Source: an uncultured Gammaproteobacteria bacterium (GTDB lineage Bacteria > Pseudomonadota > Gammaproteobacteria > Pseudomonadales > UBA5518). From it: DNA of 64,000 nucleotides. Shown here piece after piece: positions 11,865 to 21,845 of the stretch (the stretch's first letter is position 1; each line of letters starts with the position of its first letter). Made by a program: the position numbers and the translations under genes. Under the pieces are notes generated by a model that saw only the letters and a list, made by a program, of their open reading frames with translations, ran no database searches and had not been told where the DNA came from. The stretch lies in contig CAIYPF010000110.1 in NCBI GenBank assembly GCA_903928015.1, positions 1 to 64,000 of the forward strand, read 5' to 3'.

Positions 11865-12125
11865 ATGACCGCAGCCATCGTCCGCCGTTGGGGCAACAGC
11901 CTCGCACTGCGTATTCCGCGCGACATCGCCGCCGCCCTCGGGATCGATGAGTCCACTGAGGTCCAATTGGATGTGAAGGACGGCAGGCTTGTTGTCGTGC
12001 CCACGCGGACACCCGAGTATTCGCTGGAAGACATGCTCAGCAAGTGCAAACCGTCCCACTTCAGGCAGAGCGCTGAAGAGACGCAATGGCTCACGGAAGG
12101 GCCAGTTGGCAAGGAGGCCTTGTGA
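11865..12125 (+). CDS. mazE: MazE-type antitoxin (AbrB/SpoVT fold)
   Basis: 86 residues. The N-terminal half is a swapped-hairpin DNA-binding domain (VRRWGNSLALRIPRD, LGIDESTEVQLDV), as in MazE and other AbrB-fold antitoxins; the C-terminal half (EYSLEDMLSKCKPSHFR) is the toxin-binding tail. The stop codon overlaps the GTG start of mazF. A palindrome directly upstream probably serves autorepression. Confidence 0.92.
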   Translation: MTAAIVRRWGNSLALRIPRDIAAALGIDESTEVQLDVKDGRLVVVPTRTPEYSLEDMLSKCKPSHFRQSAEETQWLTEGPVGKEAL

Positions 12126-12439
12126 AGAGAGGAGATATCGTTTTGGTGGATTTCGATCCCACCTTGGGGCACGAGCAGGCCGGCGCGCGCCCGGCTCTGG
12201 TCCTGTCTCCCGAGGCGTTCAATCGCATGACAGGCTTGGCGATGGTTGTGCCGGTCACCCGTCGTGTGAGGAACTTCCCGTTCGAGGTTTCCTTGTCCGG
12301 AACCCGCACAGTCGGTGTGGCGCTGTGCCACCAGTCACGCACGATCGATACGCGTGCGCGCCGCTGCAAAGTCGTTGAACAGGCCCCGGAAAGTGTGGTG
12401 TCAGAAGCGGTGGCAAAGGTGCGGGCGATTCTTGCGTGA
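12122..12439 (+). CDS. mazF: MazF-type mRNA interferase toxin
   Basis: 105 residues of the MazF/PemK family: KRGDIVLVDFDPTLGHEQAGARP at the N-terminus (family signature with the conserved P-T-x-G-x-E-Q and R-P), PVTRRVRNFPFEV, and a C-terminal helix. MazF toxins cleave mRNA at short motifs and halt growth when the antitoxin is lost. The start is GTG at 12122, overlapping the mazE TGA by 4 bases (GTGA), so translation is coupled. An in-frame upstream ATG at 12086 would lie inside mazE and is unlikely. Confidence 0.92.
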   Translation: MKRGDIVLVDFDPTLGHEQAGARPALVLSPEAFNRMTGLAMVVPVTRRVRNFPFEVSLSGTRTVGVALCHQSRTIDTRARRCKVVEQAPESVVSEAVAKVRAILA

Positions 12440-12485: not shown

Positions 12486-12728
12486 TCACGCCACCTGACG
12501 GGGGCTGATGCCCGGCGGATCGGTGCGGCGGAGGTAGTACTCGGTGGGGTGGACCCGGCCGCGCTCGTCGATGGCGGCGGCATGGACGATGCCGAGGATG
12601 TCGCCTTCTTCGTCGGAGATCACGGTCTCGAAGCCTTTGCGCCGGATGTCTGCGCTGGGGCAGCGGTTGATGCGGCGCTTGAACTCGCGGTAGTCGACCT
12701 TGACGAAGAAGCTCTCGAGGTTTTTCAT
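12486..12728 (-). CDS. Small unknown protein under a LexA box
   Basis: 80 residues, start at 12728 (MKNLESFFVKVDYREFKRRI); an in-frame ATG at 12746 overlaps the LexA box and would be too close to the promoter. I do not recognise the family. It is charged, soluble and has no membrane segment or cysteine pair; the middle (GFETVISDEEGDILGIVHAAAID) reads like a small beta-sheet domain. Its promoter contains an almost perfect LexA-binding site, so it is probably induced by DNA damage. It is convergent with mazF and lies about 650 bases from recC. Confidence 0.65.
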   Translation of the reverse strand: MKNLESFFVKVDYREFKRRINRCPSADIRRKGFETVISDEEGDILGIVHAAAIDERGRVHPTEYYLRRTDPPGISPRQVA

Positions 12729-12744
12729 GGCTGGGATTCCATAC

Positions 12745-12766
12745 ATACTGTGTTTGCGTACAGTAT
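12745..12766 (-). promoter_or_regulatory. LexA (SOS) box
   Basis: Perfect palindromic arms ATACTGT and ACAGTAT separated by eight bases, matching the gammaproteobacterial LexA consensus CTGT-N8-ACAG including the flanking TA. It ends 17 bases upstream of the small gene's ATG and overlaps the -10 element, the normal position for repression. Confidence 0.8.
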
Positions 12767-12789
12767 AGGCCAGATGTTTTGCCCTGCAA
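12762..12789 (-). promoter_or_regulatory. Sigma-70-type promoter overlapping the LexA box
   Basis: On the minus strand, TTGCAG (12789-12784) and TATACT (12767-12762) are separated by 16 bases. The -10 hexamer shares bases with the LexA half-site. Confidence 0.6.
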
Positions 12790-13242: not shown

Positions 13243-13381
13243 CGGTGAGTGCTCGCGCAGTGCCAGCGCCCGAGCATAGCGGCGGCGTGCGCAGGCCGCA
13301 TCGACGGCCTTCCGCTGCGGGGTGGCGCTGCGCGACAATGCGCGCCCACCCGGGCTTCGCAGGACGCGTTCGCGGTTTCAG

Positions 13382-16300
13382 ATGCTCACATTCCACCACG
13401 GCAACGACCTCGAAGTGCTGCGCAGACTCGCCGCGCAGCGGCTCGCGCAATCTCCCCCGCCGCCGCTCGAGCCCGAGCACGTGGTGGTGCCCAACGCGGG
13501 CATGGCCAAGTGGTTCAGACGGGGCGTGCTGGAACATCAGGGCATCGCCGCGGACCTCAGCTGCGACAGCCCCGTGCAGTTCCTGCGACGCATCGCGGGT
13601 ATCGTGCTCGGGTTCCCCGCTCCTTCCGAAGACCCCTGGTCGAGAGATCTCCTCACGGTGCGCCTGATGGGTCTGATCCCCGGCCTCCTCGGGCGCCCTG
13701 ATTTCGCTCCGCTCGCGACCTACCTCGCCGACACCCGCGATCCACGCCGCTTGCTCGGCCTCTCGCAGCAGATCGCTGCGCTCTTCGATGCGTACCTCGT
13801 CTGGCGTGACGACTGGATCCGCGACTGGGAGGCAGGCAAGCCCGGTGATGGCAGCCCCGCGCGCGAGCATCCCTGGCAGCCGGTGCTCTGGTGCGCGCTG
13901 AGCTCCGCCGTCACGACGGCACATCCGGGTGCCCTGCACCCCGCTGCGATGATCGCGCTGCTCTGCGAGCGCCTGAAACACGCTGAGCCACCCTCTGGTT
14001 TGCCATCACGCGTCACGGGCTTCGGTTTCGGTGCCGTTGCGCCTTCGATACTCCACGGATTTCGCGCGCTCGGCGCCCATGCGGATGTACAGGTCTTCCA
14101 GTTCAATCCCTGTCCCGAGTATTGGGCAGATCTTCAGAGCGAAGCCAAGCTCGCCCGCCAGCGTGTCCTGGACCCCCAGCGGGCCCTGTACGCCGAGACG
14201 GGCAACCCGTTGCTCGCCTCTTGGGGCCAGCAGGGCGCAGCCCAGCTGATGGAACAGTTGAAGCACGACGACAACCTCGAATTCCACCTCGGTGAGCAGC
14301 GCCCGGGCACGCTTCTGGGGCGGATACAGGAAGACATCCTCCACCTGCGGGAGCCCGCCGACAGCGGCCCCCTGCAGCCCGACGGCAGCATTGTCTTTGC
14401 CGAGACCCACAGCCGCCTGCGCGAGGTCGAGGCGCTGCACGATGCGCTGCTCGACATGATCGAGCGCTTCGACCCCCTTTCCCCGCGTGACATCGTGGTG
14501 ATGGCCCCTGACATCGCGGCCTACGCGCCACACATCGAGGCCGTTTTCGGCGAGCTGTCGGGCGATCGGCGCTTCATTCCCTACGCCATCTCGGATCGCG
14601 CGAGCCTTGCCGAGGAGGCGCTGCCCCGGAGCTTCCTGCATCTCTTCGCGTTGCCCGACAGCCGCTTTACCGCCTCCGAGGTGCTGGGGCTGCTCGCGGT
14701 GCCCGCGGTGGGCGAACGTGCCGGCTTCACGGCCGCCGACATGGAAACCCTGCATGCGCTGGTGGCGTGCAGTGGCATCCGTCTGGGCTACGACGATGCG
14801 GGTGCAGCCGGGGATGCGCCCGCGCTCGCGCGCAACACCTGGCGCTTCGGGCTCGAGCGGTTGCTGCTTGGCGTTGCGATGGACGAGGGCGCACTTTTCG
14901 CGGGGGTCGCGCCCGTCGGCGTGGGCGGTGCCTCGGAGGCCGAGCTGGTCGGCAAACTCGGTGTCTTCGTCGACCGGTTGGCTGGGCTCGCCACGGAGAT
15001 CGATGCTCCGCGTACGCCCGCGGGCTGGCGCGAGATGGTTCACCGCATTTTCGCGGACTTCGTCGCGGACGGACGCCCCCATGCAGCCGCGCGCGCCGAG
15101 ACGCACGCAGAAGTCAACGCCGCCATCGATGTGCTGGATGCGGCGGGTTGCACGGCGGAGCTCGCGCGGGAGGTCGTGCAGGACCTGATCGAAACCCGCC
15201 TCTCGGCGGCCGAGAACAACCACGCGTTTCTGCGGGCGGGCGTGAGCTTCTGCCAGCTGACGCCACTGCGCACCATCCCTTTCCGTGTGGTGTGCCTGCT
15301 CGGCATGAATGCCGAGGCGTTTCCGCGCAATCGCGAGCGCCCGGCCTTCGACCTGATGGGCGTGATGCCACGGCGGGGCGATCCCTCGCGCCGCGACGAT
15401 GACCGCTTCGTTTTCCTGGAATCGCTGATAGCGGCGCGTGACTGCCTCTACATCAGCCGCGTCGCCGCCGACGAACGCAGCGACGCGCCCCGGGAGCCCG
15501 CGGTGCCGGTGAGTGAGTTGCGCGAGTACATCGAGCGCCTGCACGGCAAGGAGGCCGCTGCCGCGCTCACGCTGAAGCACGCGCTGAAACCCTTCGCCCC
15601 GTCCTACTTCGACGGCAGCTGCGAGCGCTACAGTTTCCGCGGCGAGTGGTGCCCGGCGGCGCGCGCCATCGGCTCTGCGCCCGTGGGCTTCTGTCCGCAA
15701 CCCCTGCAACCCCAACCCGCTGACGAGCCGGTGATCCGACCGGACGCCCTTGCACGCTTCTTCACGCGTCCTTGCGAGAGCTTTTTCAACGAGCGGCTCG
15801 GCGTGCGATTTCCCGAAGCCGGTGAGACGCTCGAGGACGTCGAGCCGATGGCGCTCGACGAACTCTCGAAATGGAAAGTGCGCAGCACACTCCTCGCCGC
15901 CTCGTCCTCGCAAACCGGGAGCGAAGCCGCAGAGCGCGTCCTTGCCGCGGGCGTACTGCCGCAAGGCGCGTCCGGCCGGTGCATGGTGGCTGTCCTGCTT
16001 GCCGAGATCGAACCTCTGAGGGAGGCGATCTCCCGCTGGGAGCTGTCCCGCACGGAGCGCATCGTCATCGACCTCGGCATTGCCCGCATCGAGGGCGATA
16101 TCGCGGGCTTGCGTGGCGGGGCGCTCAAGGAACACACCTTGTCCAGCGAACCCCACGGCCGCGCCCTTGCGGGGTTCTGGCTGCGTCATCTGATGGTCTG
16201 CGCCGCCGGGTTGGTCGACGAGCCGAGCGAACAGCTGAGTCGCGACGGAGGCTGCACGCTGCGTGTGCTTCCGGCCGCTGACGCAATCGAATGCCTGCGC

Positions 16301-16582
16301 GATCTGGTCGAGGTGTATTTCTCGGGTCTGCGTGAGCCGCTGCCCCTGTTTCCGAAAGCCGCCTGGAAATGGGTCAGTGGCAAGGATCAGGCAAAGGCGC
16401 GAATCGAGGCGCGCAAAGTATTCCTGCGACGCTACGACGGCGCGCCGGGCGAAGGCGATGACGCCTACGTGAGCCGCGTATTCCCCGATGTGGATGAGGC
16501 GCTCGGCCAGCGCTTCGAGGCGCTGGCGGAGCGCGTCTTCCGGCCGCTGCGCGATGCAGCCACAGCGGAAGACACCATATGA
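13382..16582 (+). CDS. recC: Exodeoxyribonuclease V subunit gamma (RecC)
   Basis: 1066 residues (E. coli 1122). RecC is the Chi-recognising scaffold of the RecBCD helicase-nuclease, which processes double-strand breaks for RecA loading. Seen: the N-terminal MLTFHHGNDLEVLRRLAA with VVVPNAGMAKW, the central DIVVMAPDIAAYAPHIEAVF, and LTPLRTIPFRVVCLLGMN, all family hallmarks. The start at 13382 matches the family start. Its stop overlaps the recB start (ATGA). It is divergent from the DUF486 gene. Confidence 0.96.
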   Translation: MLTFHHGNDLEVLRRLAAQRLAQSPPPPLEPEHVVVPNAGMAKWFRRGVLEHQGIAADLSCDSPVQFLRRIAGIVLGFPAPSEDPWSRDLLTVRLMGLIPGLLGRPDFAPLATYLADTRDPRRLLGLSQQIAALFDAYLVWRDDWIRDWEAGKPGDGSPAREHPWQPVLWCALSSAVTTAHPGALHPAAMIALLCERLKHAEPPSGLPSRVTGFGFGAVAPSILHGFRALGAHADVQVFQFNPCPEYWADLQSEAKLARQRVLDPQRALYAETGNPLLASWGQQGAAQLMEQLKHDDNLEFHLGEQRPGTLLGRIQEDILHLREPADSGPLQPDGSIVFAETHSRLREVEALHDALLDMIERFDPLSPRDIVVMAPDIAAYAPHIEAVFGELSGDRRFIPYAISDRASLAEEALPRSFLHLFALPDSRFTASEVLGLLAVPAVGERAGFTAADMETLHALVACSGIRLGYDDAGAAGDAPALARNTWRFGLERLLLGVAMDEGALFAGVAPVGVGGASEAELVGKLGVFVDRLAGLATEIDAPRTPAGWREMVHRIFADFVADGRPHAAARAETHAEVNAAIDVLDAAGCTAELAREVVQDLIETRLSAAENNHAFLRAGVSFCQLTPLRTIPFRVVCLLGMNAEAFPRNRERPAFDLMGVMPRRGDPSRRDDDRFVFLESLIAARDCLYISRVAADERSDAPREPAVPVSELREYIERLHGKEAAAALTLKHALKPFAPSYFDGSCERYSFRGEWCPAARAIGSAPVGFCPQPLQPQPADEPVIRPDALARFFTRPCESFFNERLGVRFPEAGETLEDVEPMALDELSKWKVRSTLLAASSSQTGSEAAERVLAAGVLPQGASGRCMVAVLLAEIEPLREAISRWELSRTERIVIDLGIARIEGDIAGLRGGALKEHTLSSEPHGRALAGFWLRHLMVCAAGLVDEPSEQLSRDGGCTLRVLPAADAIECLRDLVEVYFSGLREPLPLFPKAAWKWVSGKDQAKARIEARKVFLRRYDGAPGEGDDAYVSRVFPDVDEALGQRFEALAERVFRPLRDAATAEDTI

Positions 16583-19500
16583 GCGCCCCCGTCGTCCCCT
16601 TCGACGCTGCATGCCAGCCACTCACGGGCCGCTGCCTGATCGAGGCAAGTGCCGGCACGGGCAAGACCTACGCCATCACCAGCCTCGTCCTGCGTCTGCT
16701 GCTCGGCCACGACGGCAGCACCACGGGTGTGAATGCGCTGCTGATAGAGCAGATCCTCATCGTTACCTTCACGCGTGCTGCGACCGAGGAACTGCGCGGC
16801 CGGATCCGCGAGCGCCTGCAGAAGGCGCGTGAGGCCTTCGCCGCTGATGCCTCGCCGTCCGACGATCCGCTGATCGCCACGCTGCTCACGCACAGCGCGG
16901 ATCTCGCGAAGGACCGCGATCGCCTTGCGCTCGCTGCCATGAGCCTCGATCTCGCGAGCATCTTTACCATTCACGCCTTTGCCGGGCGGATGCTCAAGCG
17001 CAACGCATTCGAGAGCGGCGTTTCCTTCGCGGTGGGAGAGGGCGAGGACGATGCCGGCGTCGTGAGCGAGGTCGTCTTCGATCTCTGGCGGGAGCGTGTC
17101 TATCCGCTTCCCGATGCGATCGCGTCGCTGATCCTCGACACGTGGGACTCCCCCGTCGAGTTCCTCCAGGAGGTACGCAGACTGCTTCTGCGCAAGGGTC
17201 TGGTGTGGCGCGGCGTACCCGCGCAGGACTGGCAGGGTTTGCTCGCCGACATCGCCGGCGCCGAGGCGGCGCTGCTCGCGGCGGCGCGGGTTCCTGCGGC
17301 CGTGGAGGCGTGCAAGGCTGTGCTACCGCGGCTCAAGAAGTCACCCAGGAGTGCGATCGAGTCGTTTCTGGACGCGTCTTCGCGCGGTGTGCTGGTGCTG
17401 GAGGATCTTCACGCGCTGGATCAGGATGCTCTGGATCTGGGCCAGGATACGCGGAAGGCGAAAGACCGGTTCCCGGCCGTGCCATTGCTGATGCAGGCCG
17501 CCGCGCTCGGTGCGCTGGCTGCAGAACTGCCCAGGCGTTTTTTCTTCGATGCGGTGTCGGAGGTCTCGACACGGCTCGCCGAGCGCAAGGCACGCACGGC
17601 AGAACTCGGGTTCGACGATCTGCTGAGCCTGCTCGCGGATGGCCTCGCCGCACCCCACACCGGTGATCGCCTTGCGACGCTGATCCTCCAGCAGTACCCG
17701 GCCGCACTCGTCGACGAGTGCCAAGACACCGACCCGCTGCAGTGGACGATCTTCGACCGCCTCTACCGCAACGCCGGCGCGCTGTTCCTGGTGGGTGATC
17801 CCAAGCAGGCGATTTATTCCTTCCGTGGTGCGGACGTCTACGCCTATCTGAAAGCCCGCAGCGCGGCCACGCAGCTCTGCAGCCTCGGCGTGAGCTGGCG
17901 CAGCACCCACGCGCTCGTTGCAGCACTGAACAGCCTCTTCTCCTTGCGCAGCGATGGTGAGGTCTTCCGGGCTGCGGGTCTTGGCTACGGGCAGATCACC
18001 GCATCGGGCAGCGCGGACAAGAAGCCGCTGCTGCACGGCAGGGATCCCGTGAAACCCTTGCAGATCATCGGATCCGTCGATGGCACCGGGTCGAGCAAGG
18101 AGGGCTATATCGAGCGCCTCACGCCTGCGGTGGCAGACCACATCGCCGGCATGCTGGCCGAGGCTGCTGCGGGGCGGCTCACCGTGGGTGACGAAGCCCT
18201 CGCACCCGGTGACATCGCCATCCTCGTGCGCACCTGGGGCGATGCCGTACCGCTGGCACGGGCCCTGGTGCGGCGCGGTGTGCCTGTGGTCTCACGGGCG
18301 CGTGACAGCGTTTACAAAAGCCCCGTCGCCGGCAGCGTCGTGGCACTGCTGCGCGCCGTGCTGGAGCCCCGGTCCGACACGGCCATGCGCGCGGCGCTCG
18401 CCTGCCTCCTTGCCGGCCGTCATGCGATCGAACTCGAGGCCGTGTTCTCGAGCGAGGCCGAGATGCTCGCCTGGCAGGAGACCTTCAGGGACTGTCGTGA
18501 GCGCCTGCGCGAGCGAGGCGTGCAGCCGATGTTCCGCCACCTCTTCCGTACGCTCGACGTGCCGACGCGTGCGCTCGGGATGCCAGATGGCGAGCGTCTG
18601 CTCACCGATGCCCTGCATCTGGTCGAACTCCTTGCCGTCGAGCGCGCCACCCTGGACAGCGACGAAGCCCTGCTCGCCCGCTTCGCGGCATGCCTCGCCA
18701 ACTCCGACGGCGACCGGGAGGAACAGCAGCTCAGGCTTGAAAGTGACGCGAAACGCGTGCGCATCATGACCATCCACGGGAGCAAGGGCCTCGAGTTCCC
18801 GGTTGTGGTACTGCCTTTTGCCGTGCATCGAAGGACCGAGAAAACACCCCTTTTCCACGACACGCAAACGTGGCAGCCGGTGTATGACCTCTCCGAGGAT
18901 TCCGCCTCACGCACCTTGGCCGATCAGGAGCGACTCTCGGAAGATCTGCGGCTGCTCTACGTTGCGCTCACGCGCGCGAAGTACAGCTGCGTCATTGGCG
19001 TGAGTGATGTCACGGACCACAAAAAGAGCATTCTCGAGCAGACCGCGCTCGGTTGGCTGCTCGGTGCCGAGGCCGTGTCGCCCGCAGATGCGCTGCAGCG
19101 CCTTCTCACCGTTCCCGGTGCACAGTTGATCGGCGTGCCGCCGGCGGCCACTGTCCCGGCTCCTCCCGCGCTGGTGAAACGCCTCGATGCGCGCGAGATC
19201 AGGAAGGAGCCCGACAGGCGCTGGCGCAGCACCAGCTACTCGGCGCTCGCCTCCCACAAGACGGAACCAGACCGCGCCGAGCAGGTCTTCCGCCAGCCGG
19301 AGATCCCGGCCCGTGAACAACAGCGCGACGCCGATTCAGACCGCACGCCCTTCGGTTTTCCGCGCGGGCCCGAATACGGTGACATGCTCCACAAGGTGCT
19401 CGAGAAAGCCGATCTCGCGCAGCCTGCCGCGGCTGCCACCAACGTCGCGCTGATCGATGCGGCGCTCCTTCGCATGGGCATGGCCCCGGATTGGCACCCG

Positions 19501-20073
19501 GTCATCGCACAGATGCTCGACGAACTGCGCAACTGCCCGCTCGATGGCAAGGCCTTGCGGCTCTGCGACATCCCGCGCAACCAGCGCCTCACCGAGATGC
19601 GCTTCGAGTTGCCCGTCGACCACCTGGACGCGCCGACGGTGAACGCGATGATGCGCACGCACGACGAGGTCTCCGCGCAGGCCGGTGATCTCGGATTCAA
19701 GCCCGTACACGGCATGCTCGCGGGCTCCATCGATCTCGTGTTTTGTCATGAGGGCCGTTACTTCGTGGCGGACTACAAGTCCAACCATCTCGGCGTCACG
19801 CTCGCGGATTACGGCACGCTGCAGCAGAAAAAAGTGATCGCAGAGCACCGCTACGACCTTCAGTACACGCTCTACACCGTGGCGCTGGTGCGCTATCTGC
19901 GCGCGCGGCTGGGGGCGGCATTCGATTACGACACGCATGTGGGCGGCGTGTACTACCTGTTCCTGCGTGGCATCCGCGCCAGCGACGCGGACGTGCAGGG
20001 CGTGTTTTTCACGCGGCCCGCGAAAGTGCTGATCGACGGACTCGATGCGATGCTCGGCAGGGGTGCGCCATGA
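16579..20073 (+). CDS. recB: Exodeoxyribonuclease V subunit beta (RecB)
   Basis: 1164 residues (E. coli 1180). Superfamily 1A 3'-5' helicase with a C-terminal nuclease domain. Walker A is ASAGTGKT near residues 24-31; DECQDTDPLQW is the Walker B region; MTIHGSKGLEFPVVV is motif V and LLYVALTRAKY motif VI. The nuclease residues are present: His938 (DMLHKVLE), Asp1052 (GSIDLVF), Asp1065 and Lys1067 (ADYKSN); the last three sit at a constant offset of 15 from E. coli D1067, D1080 and K1082. Overlaps recC and recD by 4 bases each. Confidence 0.97.
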   Translation: MSAPVVPFDAACQPLTGRCLIEASAGTGKTYAITSLVLRLLLGHDGSTTGVNALLIEQILIVTFTRAATEELRGRIRERLQKAREAFAADASPSDDPLIATLLTHSADLAKDRDRLALAAMSLDLASIFTIHAFAGRMLKRNAFESGVSFAVGEGEDDAGVVSEVVFDLWRERVYPLPDAIASLILDTWDSPVEFLQEVRRLLLRKGLVWRGVPAQDWQGLLADIAGAEAALLAAARVPAAVEACKAVLPRLKKSPRSAIESFLDASSRGVLVLEDLHALDQDALDLGQDTRKAKDRFPAVPLLMQAAALGALAAELPRRFFFDAVSEVSTRLAERKARTAELGFDDLLSLLADGLAAPHTGDRLATLILQQYPAALVDECQDTDPLQWTIFDRLYRNAGALFLVGDPKQAIYSFRGADVYAYLKARSAATQLCSLGVSWRSTHALVAALNSLFSLRSDGEVFRAAGLGYGQITASGSADKKPLLHGRDPVKPLQIIGSVDGTGSSKEGYIERLTPAVADHIAGMLAEAAAGRLTVGDEALAPGDIAILVRTWGDAVPLARALVRRGVPVVSRARDSVYKSPVAGSVVALLRAVLEPRSDTAMRAALACLLAGRHAIELEAVFSSEAEMLAWQETFRDCRERLRERGVQPMFRHLFRTLDVPTRALGMPDGERLLTDALHLVELLAVERATLDSDEALLARFAACLANSDGDREEQQLRLESDAKRVRIMTIHGSKGLEFPVVVLPFAVHRRTEKTPLFHDTQTWQPVYDLSEDSASRTLADQERLSEDLRLLYVALTRAKYSCVIGVSDVTDHKKSILEQTALGWLLGAEAVSPADALQRLLTVPGAQLIGVPPAATVPAPPALVKRLDAREIRKEPDRRWRSTSYSALASHKTEPDRAEQVFRQPEIPAREQQRDADSDRTPFGFPRGPEYGDMLHKVLEKADLAQPAAAATNVALIDAALLRMGMAPDWHPVIAQMLDELRNCPLDGKALRLCDIPRNQRLTEMRFELPVDHLDAPTVNAMMRTHDEVSAQAGDLGFKPVHGMLAGSIDLVFCHEGRYFVADYKSNHLGVTLADYGTLQQKKVIAEHRYDLQYTLYTVALVRYLRARLGAAFDYDTHVGGVYYLFLRGIRASDADVQGVFFTRPAKVLIDGLDAMLGRGAP

Positions 20074-21845
20074 GCACGCAGCGTCCGCACAGCTCCGATA
20101 CGAGCGCGGCGCTCGCGCAACAGATGTCCGCGAGCCTTGCGAGCCGGGCCCTCACCGCGGAGGGGCGCGAGGCGGTGGCGGCTGCTACGTACGCTGTCGT
20201 GCAGGCTTTTCTTGCCGGCGACACCTGCATCGAACTTGATGGTCACCGCGCGTCGCTGTTGCCGGGGCTCGCATGCGAACCCGCGCTTTGCGCCGCCCCT
20301 GGCAGCGGATCACCCACGCCGTTGGTGCTGGACGGCCGCCGGCTGTACCTCGCGCGGCTCTGGCAAAAGGAAGTGGGGCTCGCCACGCGGCTGCGCGCGC
20401 TTGCTGCGGAACACTGTGCCCCGTATCCGGGCATGACCGCGGCGCTGCATACGCTTTTCGATGCGCAGGCCATCGATCAGCGCCGCGCCTGTGCCATGGC
20501 GCTCACGCGGCGGCTCGGCATCGTCACGGGCGGGCCCGGCACCGGCAAGACGACCACGGTCGCCAAGCTGCTGGTGTTGCTGATCGGCGATGCGCTCGCG
20601 CGCAAGGAGAAGCCGGTGATCGCGCTCACCGCGCCCACCGGCAAGGCTGCGGCGCGCGTGGCCGAAGCGCTCCTCACCGCGCGCGACAAGATGCTCCTTG
20701 GCGGCCAGGCTCGACGCGAGGTGCTTGAGTTGCTGCCCAAGAAAGCCAGCACCCTGCACCGCCTGCTCGGTTCCCGGCCCGATGGCAGTTTCCGTCACGG
20801 CCCCGGTAATCCGCTCGCGGCGCATGTGGTGGTGGTCGACGATTGCTCGATGGTGGATCTGCGGCTTTTCGACGCGCTGCTGCAGGCGCTGCGCCCCGAT
20901 GCGCATCTGCTGCTGCTCGGTGACAGCAACCAGCTCGATGCCGTCGAGGCGGGTAACGTCTTCGGTACGCTGTGCGAGGGCGCGGGCAGCGTCACGCCGG
21001 CGCGCGCCGCGGAACTCACGGCGCTCGACATCGCGCCGCAGGGCATCGCACAGGATGCGAGTGCCGTGAACGATGCCACCGCTGTGCTGCAACACAGTTA
21101 CCGCTTCGACAAGCTGGGCGCCATCGGCAGGCTGGCTGCGGCCGTGCTGGCGAGGCACGCCACAGACGCTGAGGCTGCGTTGTCGTCCGACGCCGATGGG
21201 CGCATCACGCGCATCTCCTACGACCCGCAGAAAGCGCTGCCGGTGGATGCGCTCGCTCAGGGTTTCGTGCCCTTGCTCGAGGCCCTGCGTGTGGGCGCCA
21301 CCGACGCGGATCTGCTGAAGATGCTCGACGACTACCGCGTGCTCACGCCGCTGCGCGACGGAGTGCATGGCATCGAGGGCCTCAACCGCGCGATCGAGCA
21401 GTTGCTGGTGGCGGCCGGGCACATGACGCCCGCTCGCGGCGGAACCGGTATCGGCCGGCCCGTGCTGGTGACGCGCAACGATCATGCGTTACAGGTCTTC
21501 AACGGCGATCTCGGGCTGGTGGTTTCAGGGCCGGATGGCGCCGAGCAGGTTCTTTTCCGCGGGCCGGATGGTCAGCCGCGACGCATCGCGCCCGGGCGAC
21601 TGCCGGCATTCGAGCGCGCCTTCGCCATGACCATCCACAAAAGCCAGGGTTCGGAATCCACGCGCGTGGCGATCGTGCTGCCGCCCGCAGGCGAGCGCGA
21701 ATTCGGCAGCCGCGAGATGCTCTACACCGCCATCACACGCGCGAAGGAAAGTCTCCTGCTGCTCATGCCGGAGGGGCCGCTGGAGGAGCGGTGGCTGCGG
21801 GCGTCGGAGCGGAAATCGGGGTTGGTGGGGCGGTTGCACGGTTGA
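20070..21845 (+). CDS. recD: Exodeoxyribonuclease V subunit alpha (RecD)
   Basis: 591 residues (E. coli 608). Superfamily 1B 5'-3' helicase, the fast motor of RecBCD. Walker A GGPGTGKT at residues 154-161, the Walker B-like VVVDDCSMVDL (DD in place of DE), motif III LLLLGDSNQLDAVEAGNVFG, and the C-terminal FAMTIHKSQGSE with YTAITRAKESLLL. Last gene of recC-recB-recD. Confidence 0.96.
   Translation: MSTQRPHSSDTSAALAQQMSASLASRALTAEGREAVAAATYAVVQAFLAGDTCIELDGHRASLLPGLACEPALCAAPGSGSPTPLVLDGRRLYLARLWQKEVGLATRLRALAAEHCAPYPGMTAALHTLFDAQAIDQRRACAMALTRRLGIVTGGPGTGKTTTVAKLLVLLIGDALARKEKPVIALTAPTGKAAARVAEALLTARDKMLLGGQARREVLELLPKKASTLHRLLGSRPDGSFRHGPGNPLAAHVVVVDDCSMVDLRLFDALLQALRPDAHLLLLGDSNQLDAVEAGNVFGTLCEGAGSVTPARAAELTALDIAPQGIAQDASAVNDATAVLQHSYRFDKLGAIGRLAAAVLARHATDAEAALSSDADGRITRISYDPQKALPVDALAQGFVPLLEALRVGATDADLLKMLDDYRVLTPLRDGVHGIEGLNRAIEQLLVAAGHMTPARGGTGIGRPVLVTRNDHALQVFNGDLGLVVSGPDGAEQVLFRGPDGQPRRIAPGRLPAFERAFAMTIHKSQGSESTRVAIVLPPAGEREFGSREMLYTAITRAKESLLLLMPEGPLEERWLRASERKSGLVGRLHG

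Follow-up and report, generated by a model that had tools for sequence, protein, structure and literature searches.

A small gene beside recC in an uncultured member of the Pseudomonadales belongs, judging from its sequence and those of its homologues, to a genuine gene family that has no name, is restricted to the order, and very probably takes its place in the SOS response among the LexA-controlled small effectors. The gene has a LexA box that overlaps its promoter, its genome encodes a LexA whose own gene carries the same type of box, both the box and the protein tail are conserved among homologues, and SulA is absent from the genomes that carry the family. We put the probability that this is a LexA-regulated SOS gene at roughly 93%. 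The LexA regulon outside enterobacteria still contains unnamed genes, and this family has a regulatory signature as strong as textbook ones, kept in seven taxonomic families despite changing neighbors. It also raises a testable question: how gammaproteobacteria without SulA halt division while their DNA is broken.

The gene, its promoter, and the LexA of its genome

The window is the whole stretch of DNA analyzed, the first 64,000 nucleotides of contig CAIYPF010000110.1. Codon changes between its 80-codon open reading frame and those of two congeners are mainly synonymous (13 synonymous to 3 nonsynonymous, and 22 to 12, mostly at third positions), which indicates a real gene, as does the presence of homologues in seven families. 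Coordinates of the gene and the features around it are collected in Table 1.

Table 1. Features of the window around the 80-codon gene
Feature	Coordinates	Strand	Basis or remark
80-codon gene of the unnamed SOS-associated family (MKNLESFF...PRQVA)	12486..12728	-	ATG at 12728, stop ends at 12486; homologues, purifying selection
C-terminal tail ...RQVA with the stop codon; similar to an ssrA-type/ClpX C-terminal degron	12486..12500	-	-AA/-VA/-TA/-AV ends family-wide
LexA operator TACTGTACGCAAACACAGTA	12746..12765	-	same sequence in G141 and G008; homologues have equivalent boxes
-10 hexamer TATACT, overlapping the LexA operator	12762..12767	-	conserved block among congeners
-35 hexamer TTGCAG (weak), 16-nt spacer to the -10	12784..12789	-	CTTGCAG conserved among congeners
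MazE/PemK-type (MazE/MazF) toxin-antitoxin pair	11865..12439	+	adjoins the 80-codon gene
recC-like gene, divergent neighbor	13322..16582	+	name from sequence and context; kept within the genus only; context, not part of the unit
recB	16579..20073		after recC; name from sequence and context
Second CTGT-N8-ACAG site	21082..21097		within the presumed recD coding sequence

The first-pass annotation of this DNA had described a near-perfect LexA box overlapping a TTGCAG-N16-TATACT promoter in front of the gene, and box, overlap, and gene are all as it described them. CTGT(N8)ACAG is the gammaproteobacterial SOS box (PMC11332147). Here it is the core of a 22-mer, ATACTGT-N8-ACAGTAT, that spans positions 12745 to 12766, and the operator overlaps the promoter (12746-12765 over 12762-12767), so that a repressor bound to the palindrome would cover the -10 hexamer and the expected transcription start. 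The 12-base form TACTGT-N8-ACAGTA has exactly one exact occurrence in the 4.27-Mb genome, which is the box of this gene. The -35 hexamer matches the sigma-70 consensus at three of six positions, and an automatic consensus promoter scan does not call the promoter. Alignment with two congeners (G141 and G008) preserves CTTGCAG and the entire block CTATACTGTACGCAAACACAGTATGTATGGAA; between the window genome and G008, both stand as unbroken conserved blocks in DNA that has otherwise diverged between and upstream of them.

The genome encodes a normal LexA, and an operator of the same type, TGCTGTATATAATCACAGCA, lies 22 nt upstream of the lexA ATG (lexA at G000:C41). Similar LexA-type boxes precede imuA, dnaE2, a gene for a DnaQ/GIY-YIG cho-like nuclease, and a radical-SAM gene. 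Because these genes and lexA share such boxes, the LexA of this genome very probably reads the motif in front of the window gene. The likely SOS regulon of the genome was read from matches to the box pattern, with sites at G000:C43:79709 (dnaE2), C44:13047 (imuA), C6:34003 (cho-like), and C30:152141 (radical-SAM); imuA was named from its sequence and its likeness to the ImuA frames of G008 and G032, as Pfam gave no match.

Genomic context, which the first-pass annotation had used as an argument (a toxin-antitoxin pair on one side and recCBD on the other), proved weaker than the box. The corresponding locus of G141 and of G008 has no MazE/MazF pair, so the pair is not an ancestral part of it, and recC is the divergent neighbor in all three congeners and in no other family, where unrelated genes adjoin. 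Context therefore adds little, and the boxes of orthologues carry the case. In G008, the family gene lies between recC and a photolyase/cryptochrome-like gene at +1 (locus L089; named from sequence only).

Homologues across the order and their upstream regions

With the single sequence as query, the family was found in 22 of the 294 genomes of the order; a profile search gave 33 firm carriers in 10 genera and seven families, a count that excludes weak matches in G015, G017, G093, and G137. Nothing firm was found outside the order among 369 genomes of the class and 299 of the phylum, and the matches obtained there were rejected as weak. Ten of the 11 genomes of one family (f30) carry the gene, the exception being 64% complete. 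The home genus is patchy, with the gene in three of six genomes, and the three congeners without it are also without SulA. Longer versions occur in another family (f12), in open frames of about 160 to 200 amino acids that keep the core and have the conserved ending -RLTA. Searches of IMG/VR, by single sequence or by profile, returned no homologues, and tblastn with several members against phages and plasmids gave no match. A gene 85% identical to that of the window lies on a public contig titled as a "Klebsiella pneumoniae" MAG (CAMAXE010000031.1, L038); this seems to be the G008 assembly, from a member of the genus of the window genome, and the title of the record looks wrong.

A scan of the regions upstream of homologues had been set beforehand as the test that could refute SOS membership. 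At 24 of 26 homologue loci, a perfect CTGT-N8-ACAG lies no more than 450 nt upstream (0.11 loci expected from shuffles), and the other 380,202 nt of these 26 loci hold five such sites in total. The two exceptions, in G143 and G175, have one-mismatch boxes, so that all 26 loci have a box with at most one core mismatch. LexA boxes also stand upstream of the f32 homologues, and several lineages have two tandem boxes, 15 to 18 nt apart. All 28 carriers tested have a LexA above the curated cutoff. The neighbors of the family gene vary between families, the neighborhood is not conserved outside the genus, and the box is kept regardless, which argues that it is conserved independently of context. Together with the LexA of the tested carriers, these boxes make SOS regulon membership very likely, and the earlier suggestion of an SOS gene is thus upheld across seven families.

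An operon partner was sought, and none is common across families; f12 and f13 do have a DUF6316 gene downstream. In these two families, the next recognizable same-strand gene often encodes a DUF6316 protein (PF19837; one match firm, one below the cutoff), as seen at L094, L096, L097, L107, L108, and L113; a literature search on DUF6316 found nothing.

The protein and its C-terminal tail

The first-pass annotation could not place the window protein in a family, and for it and 18 relatives (19 members) searches of Pfam, NCBIfam, PHROGs, PADLOC, and PDB sequences indeed gave no match beyond weak ones in the last three (E values of about 0.02 to 1), which were judged to be chance. The Pfam and NCBIfam models gave no match to DinI, RecX, YebG, or another named small SOS protein, none of the 19 members matches SulA (PF03846), and a literature search on the family found nothing. 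The core follows the pattern F-x-x-V-[DN]-Y-x-x-F-R, a K/R-G-rich turn, T-x-I-Y-D, and A-I-x-x-A-[AS]-I-D-x-x-G-R-C-x-P-x-E-Y-F-I-R. Its predicted structure, modeled from three close sequences, consists of one strand, one short helix, and then four strands (beta-alpha-beta4), with moderate confidence (pLDDT 76, pTM 0.60), and Foldseek with two models found no match below an E value of 0.07.

After the core comes a linker that varies in length and sequence, followed by a conserved end. The tail closes with [AVST][AV] in 25 of 26 homologues versus 14 of 154 background proteins (9%), and with -AA in 14 of 26 versus 4 of 154. ClpXP reads the ssrA tag and its LVA, AAV, and ASV variants, and the family has a nonpolar C terminus of this -LAA/-LVA/-AAV type. 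The homologue in G117 ends in -LND, so the tail is not universal. Two publications (PMC12462666, with its reference 25, and PMC12974527) report that the Escherichia coli SOS protein RecN is digested by ClpXP within minutes and that ClpXP trapping after DNA damage revealed extensive instability in the SOS regulon. From the ssrA-like ends and this clearance of E. coli SOS proteins, we infer, with fair reason, a short pulse of product after damage; we see about even odds that C-terminal proteolysis makes the product short-lived. Like RecN and other SOS proteins cleared by ClpXP, the window family appears to be LexA controlled, and its ending makes it a likely ClpXP substrate, whereas RecN is a large SMC-like ATPase with no homology to the window protein.

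Two of the weak matches outside the order (G347 and G580) and the weak in-order match in G017 led to a second unnamed family of about 105 amino acids (L057, L056, and L173, respectively, the last with its open reading frame at 1638-2138). It aligns with the window family in hhalign (95.9%, E value of 5e-9, 41 columns) through a common core, F-x-x-[LV]-[DN]-Y-x-Q-F-R-Q-L ... G-A-E-I-x-I-x-D-N. This second family has no meaningful Pfam match, and in G017 no perfect LexA box lies upstream of it; it is possibly a distant relative outside SOS control.

SulA and the possible role of the family

PF03846 detects SulA or ImuA in 115 of the 294 genomes of the order, and counting short open frames as SulA leaves about 60 genomes (read from the table of PF03846 matches). 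In the same search, SulA is found in none of the 33 carriers; weak matches in carriers G008 and G032 were rejected, as the open reading frames read as ImuA. Where the flanks of lexA are readable in carriers, the next gene is not sulA, which occupies the slot after lexA in Pseudomonas; in most of them a small convergent gene comes next, and topA after it. The exclusion between the family and SulA is significant by genome (Fisher p = 0.0004) and not by family (p of about 0.13 to 0.2), which makes it a lead rather than proof. It is clustered by lineage, and many genomes have neither protein.

Several other readings of the gene were weighed. The palindrome might be a chance occurrence or the site of another regulator, leaving the gene outside the SOS regulon. 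The CTGT-N8-ACAG core alone is weak evidence, since 0.54 occurrences are expected per window by chance; two are present, and the second, in the presumed recD, most likely is chance. The box of the gene, however, has the exact extended form, of the same type as that before the genome's own lexA, and boxes stand independently before homologues in seven families. The upstream test on orthologues led us to reject this reading, and we regard it as highly improbable. A damage-induced self-poison, or a domesticated mobile-element gene, like SOS-linked toxins, would fit a small and tightly repressed gene with a MazE/MazF-type pair adjoining it in this genome, but is very unlikely: the family has no phage, plasmid, or IMG/VR match and no partner gene, it is present in 10 of the 11 f30 genomes, and the MazE/MazF pair is missing at the locus in G141 and G008.

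Two further proposals, the main rivals, assign the product a role in the SOS response itself or in repair, and both seem to us unlikely. As a feedback regulator, it would bind LexA, RecA, or part of a translesion polymerase and tune the response as DdrR, DinI, and RecX do. Small size, LexA control, and the presence of imuA and dnaE2 in these genomes agree with this, and there is precedent in DdrR of Acinetobacter, a small corepressor induced by damage, which binds UmuDAb and is described as unique to that genus (PMC11332147). DdrR resembles the window family in being small, damage linked, and confined to one bacterial branch; yet its partner is UmuDAb and its genus lacks LexA, whereas the tested carriers all use LexA. 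The family, moreover, does not match DinI, RecX, or YebG, and none of the neighborhoods seen places its gene next to lexA, recA, or umuD. As a DNA- or single-strand-binding repair accessory, the product would coat or guide damaged DNA. VIA-align on the model gives weak similarity to proteins that bind DNA and to a DNA mimic (archaeal UBP, Z of 4.8, the best; Ugi, 4.1; T5 PC4-like, 3.2; Pur-alpha, 2.8), although every score is in the uninformative range of the tool. The window product is slightly basic (pI 8.9), the longer f12 version tested is strongly so (pI 10), and recC adjoins the gene within the genus, but the f30 member tested is acidic (pI 5.8), and the neighborhood is not kept outside the genus.

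We favor the reading of the gene as a LexA-regulated, damage-induced, transient small effector, which is probably correct, an assessment that leaves division as the target out of account. Combining the SulA exclusion lead with LexA control, small size, and the probable degron, the best single guess on its role is a SulA-like division checkpoint, which we offer tentatively. Doubtful is the fuller claim that an undescribed SOS checkpoint protein arose in the order and fills SulA's place in at least seven families, with LexA and ClpXP confining it to a pulse of synthesis and breakdown. The gene would form an SOS unit by itself. While a cell is undamaged, LexA bound at 12746-12765, on top of the -10, would keep it off; damage would trigger RecA-dependent self-cleavage of LexA, and the gene would be transcribed. 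The product would be small and soluble, a single domain followed by a flexible C-terminal tail; a ClpXP-type protease may read the -VA end of this tail as a degron, giving a short pulse that is cleared once the damage is mended. Its most likely target would be the division machinery, in SulA's role in lineages without SulA.

SulA of E. coli and Pseudomonas (PF03846) is likewise the product of a small LexA-repressed gene and, like the window protein, is expected to be short-lived by way of its C terminus; within the order, it occurs in relatives from which the window family is missing. The two differ in that they share no sequence similarity and that the window-family gene is not beside lexA. 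The tail of the window family ends in -VA or -AA; that of SulA ends in histidine. SosA, SidA, DidA, and YneA are damage-induced division inhibitors and membrane proteins. Unlike them, the window protein is hydrophilic (GRAVY of -0.68), which makes a soluble, FtsZ-type target more likely than a membrane target. These four small, unrelated proteins each serve their own lineage much as SulA does elsewhere, and the same pattern is what we propose for the window family.
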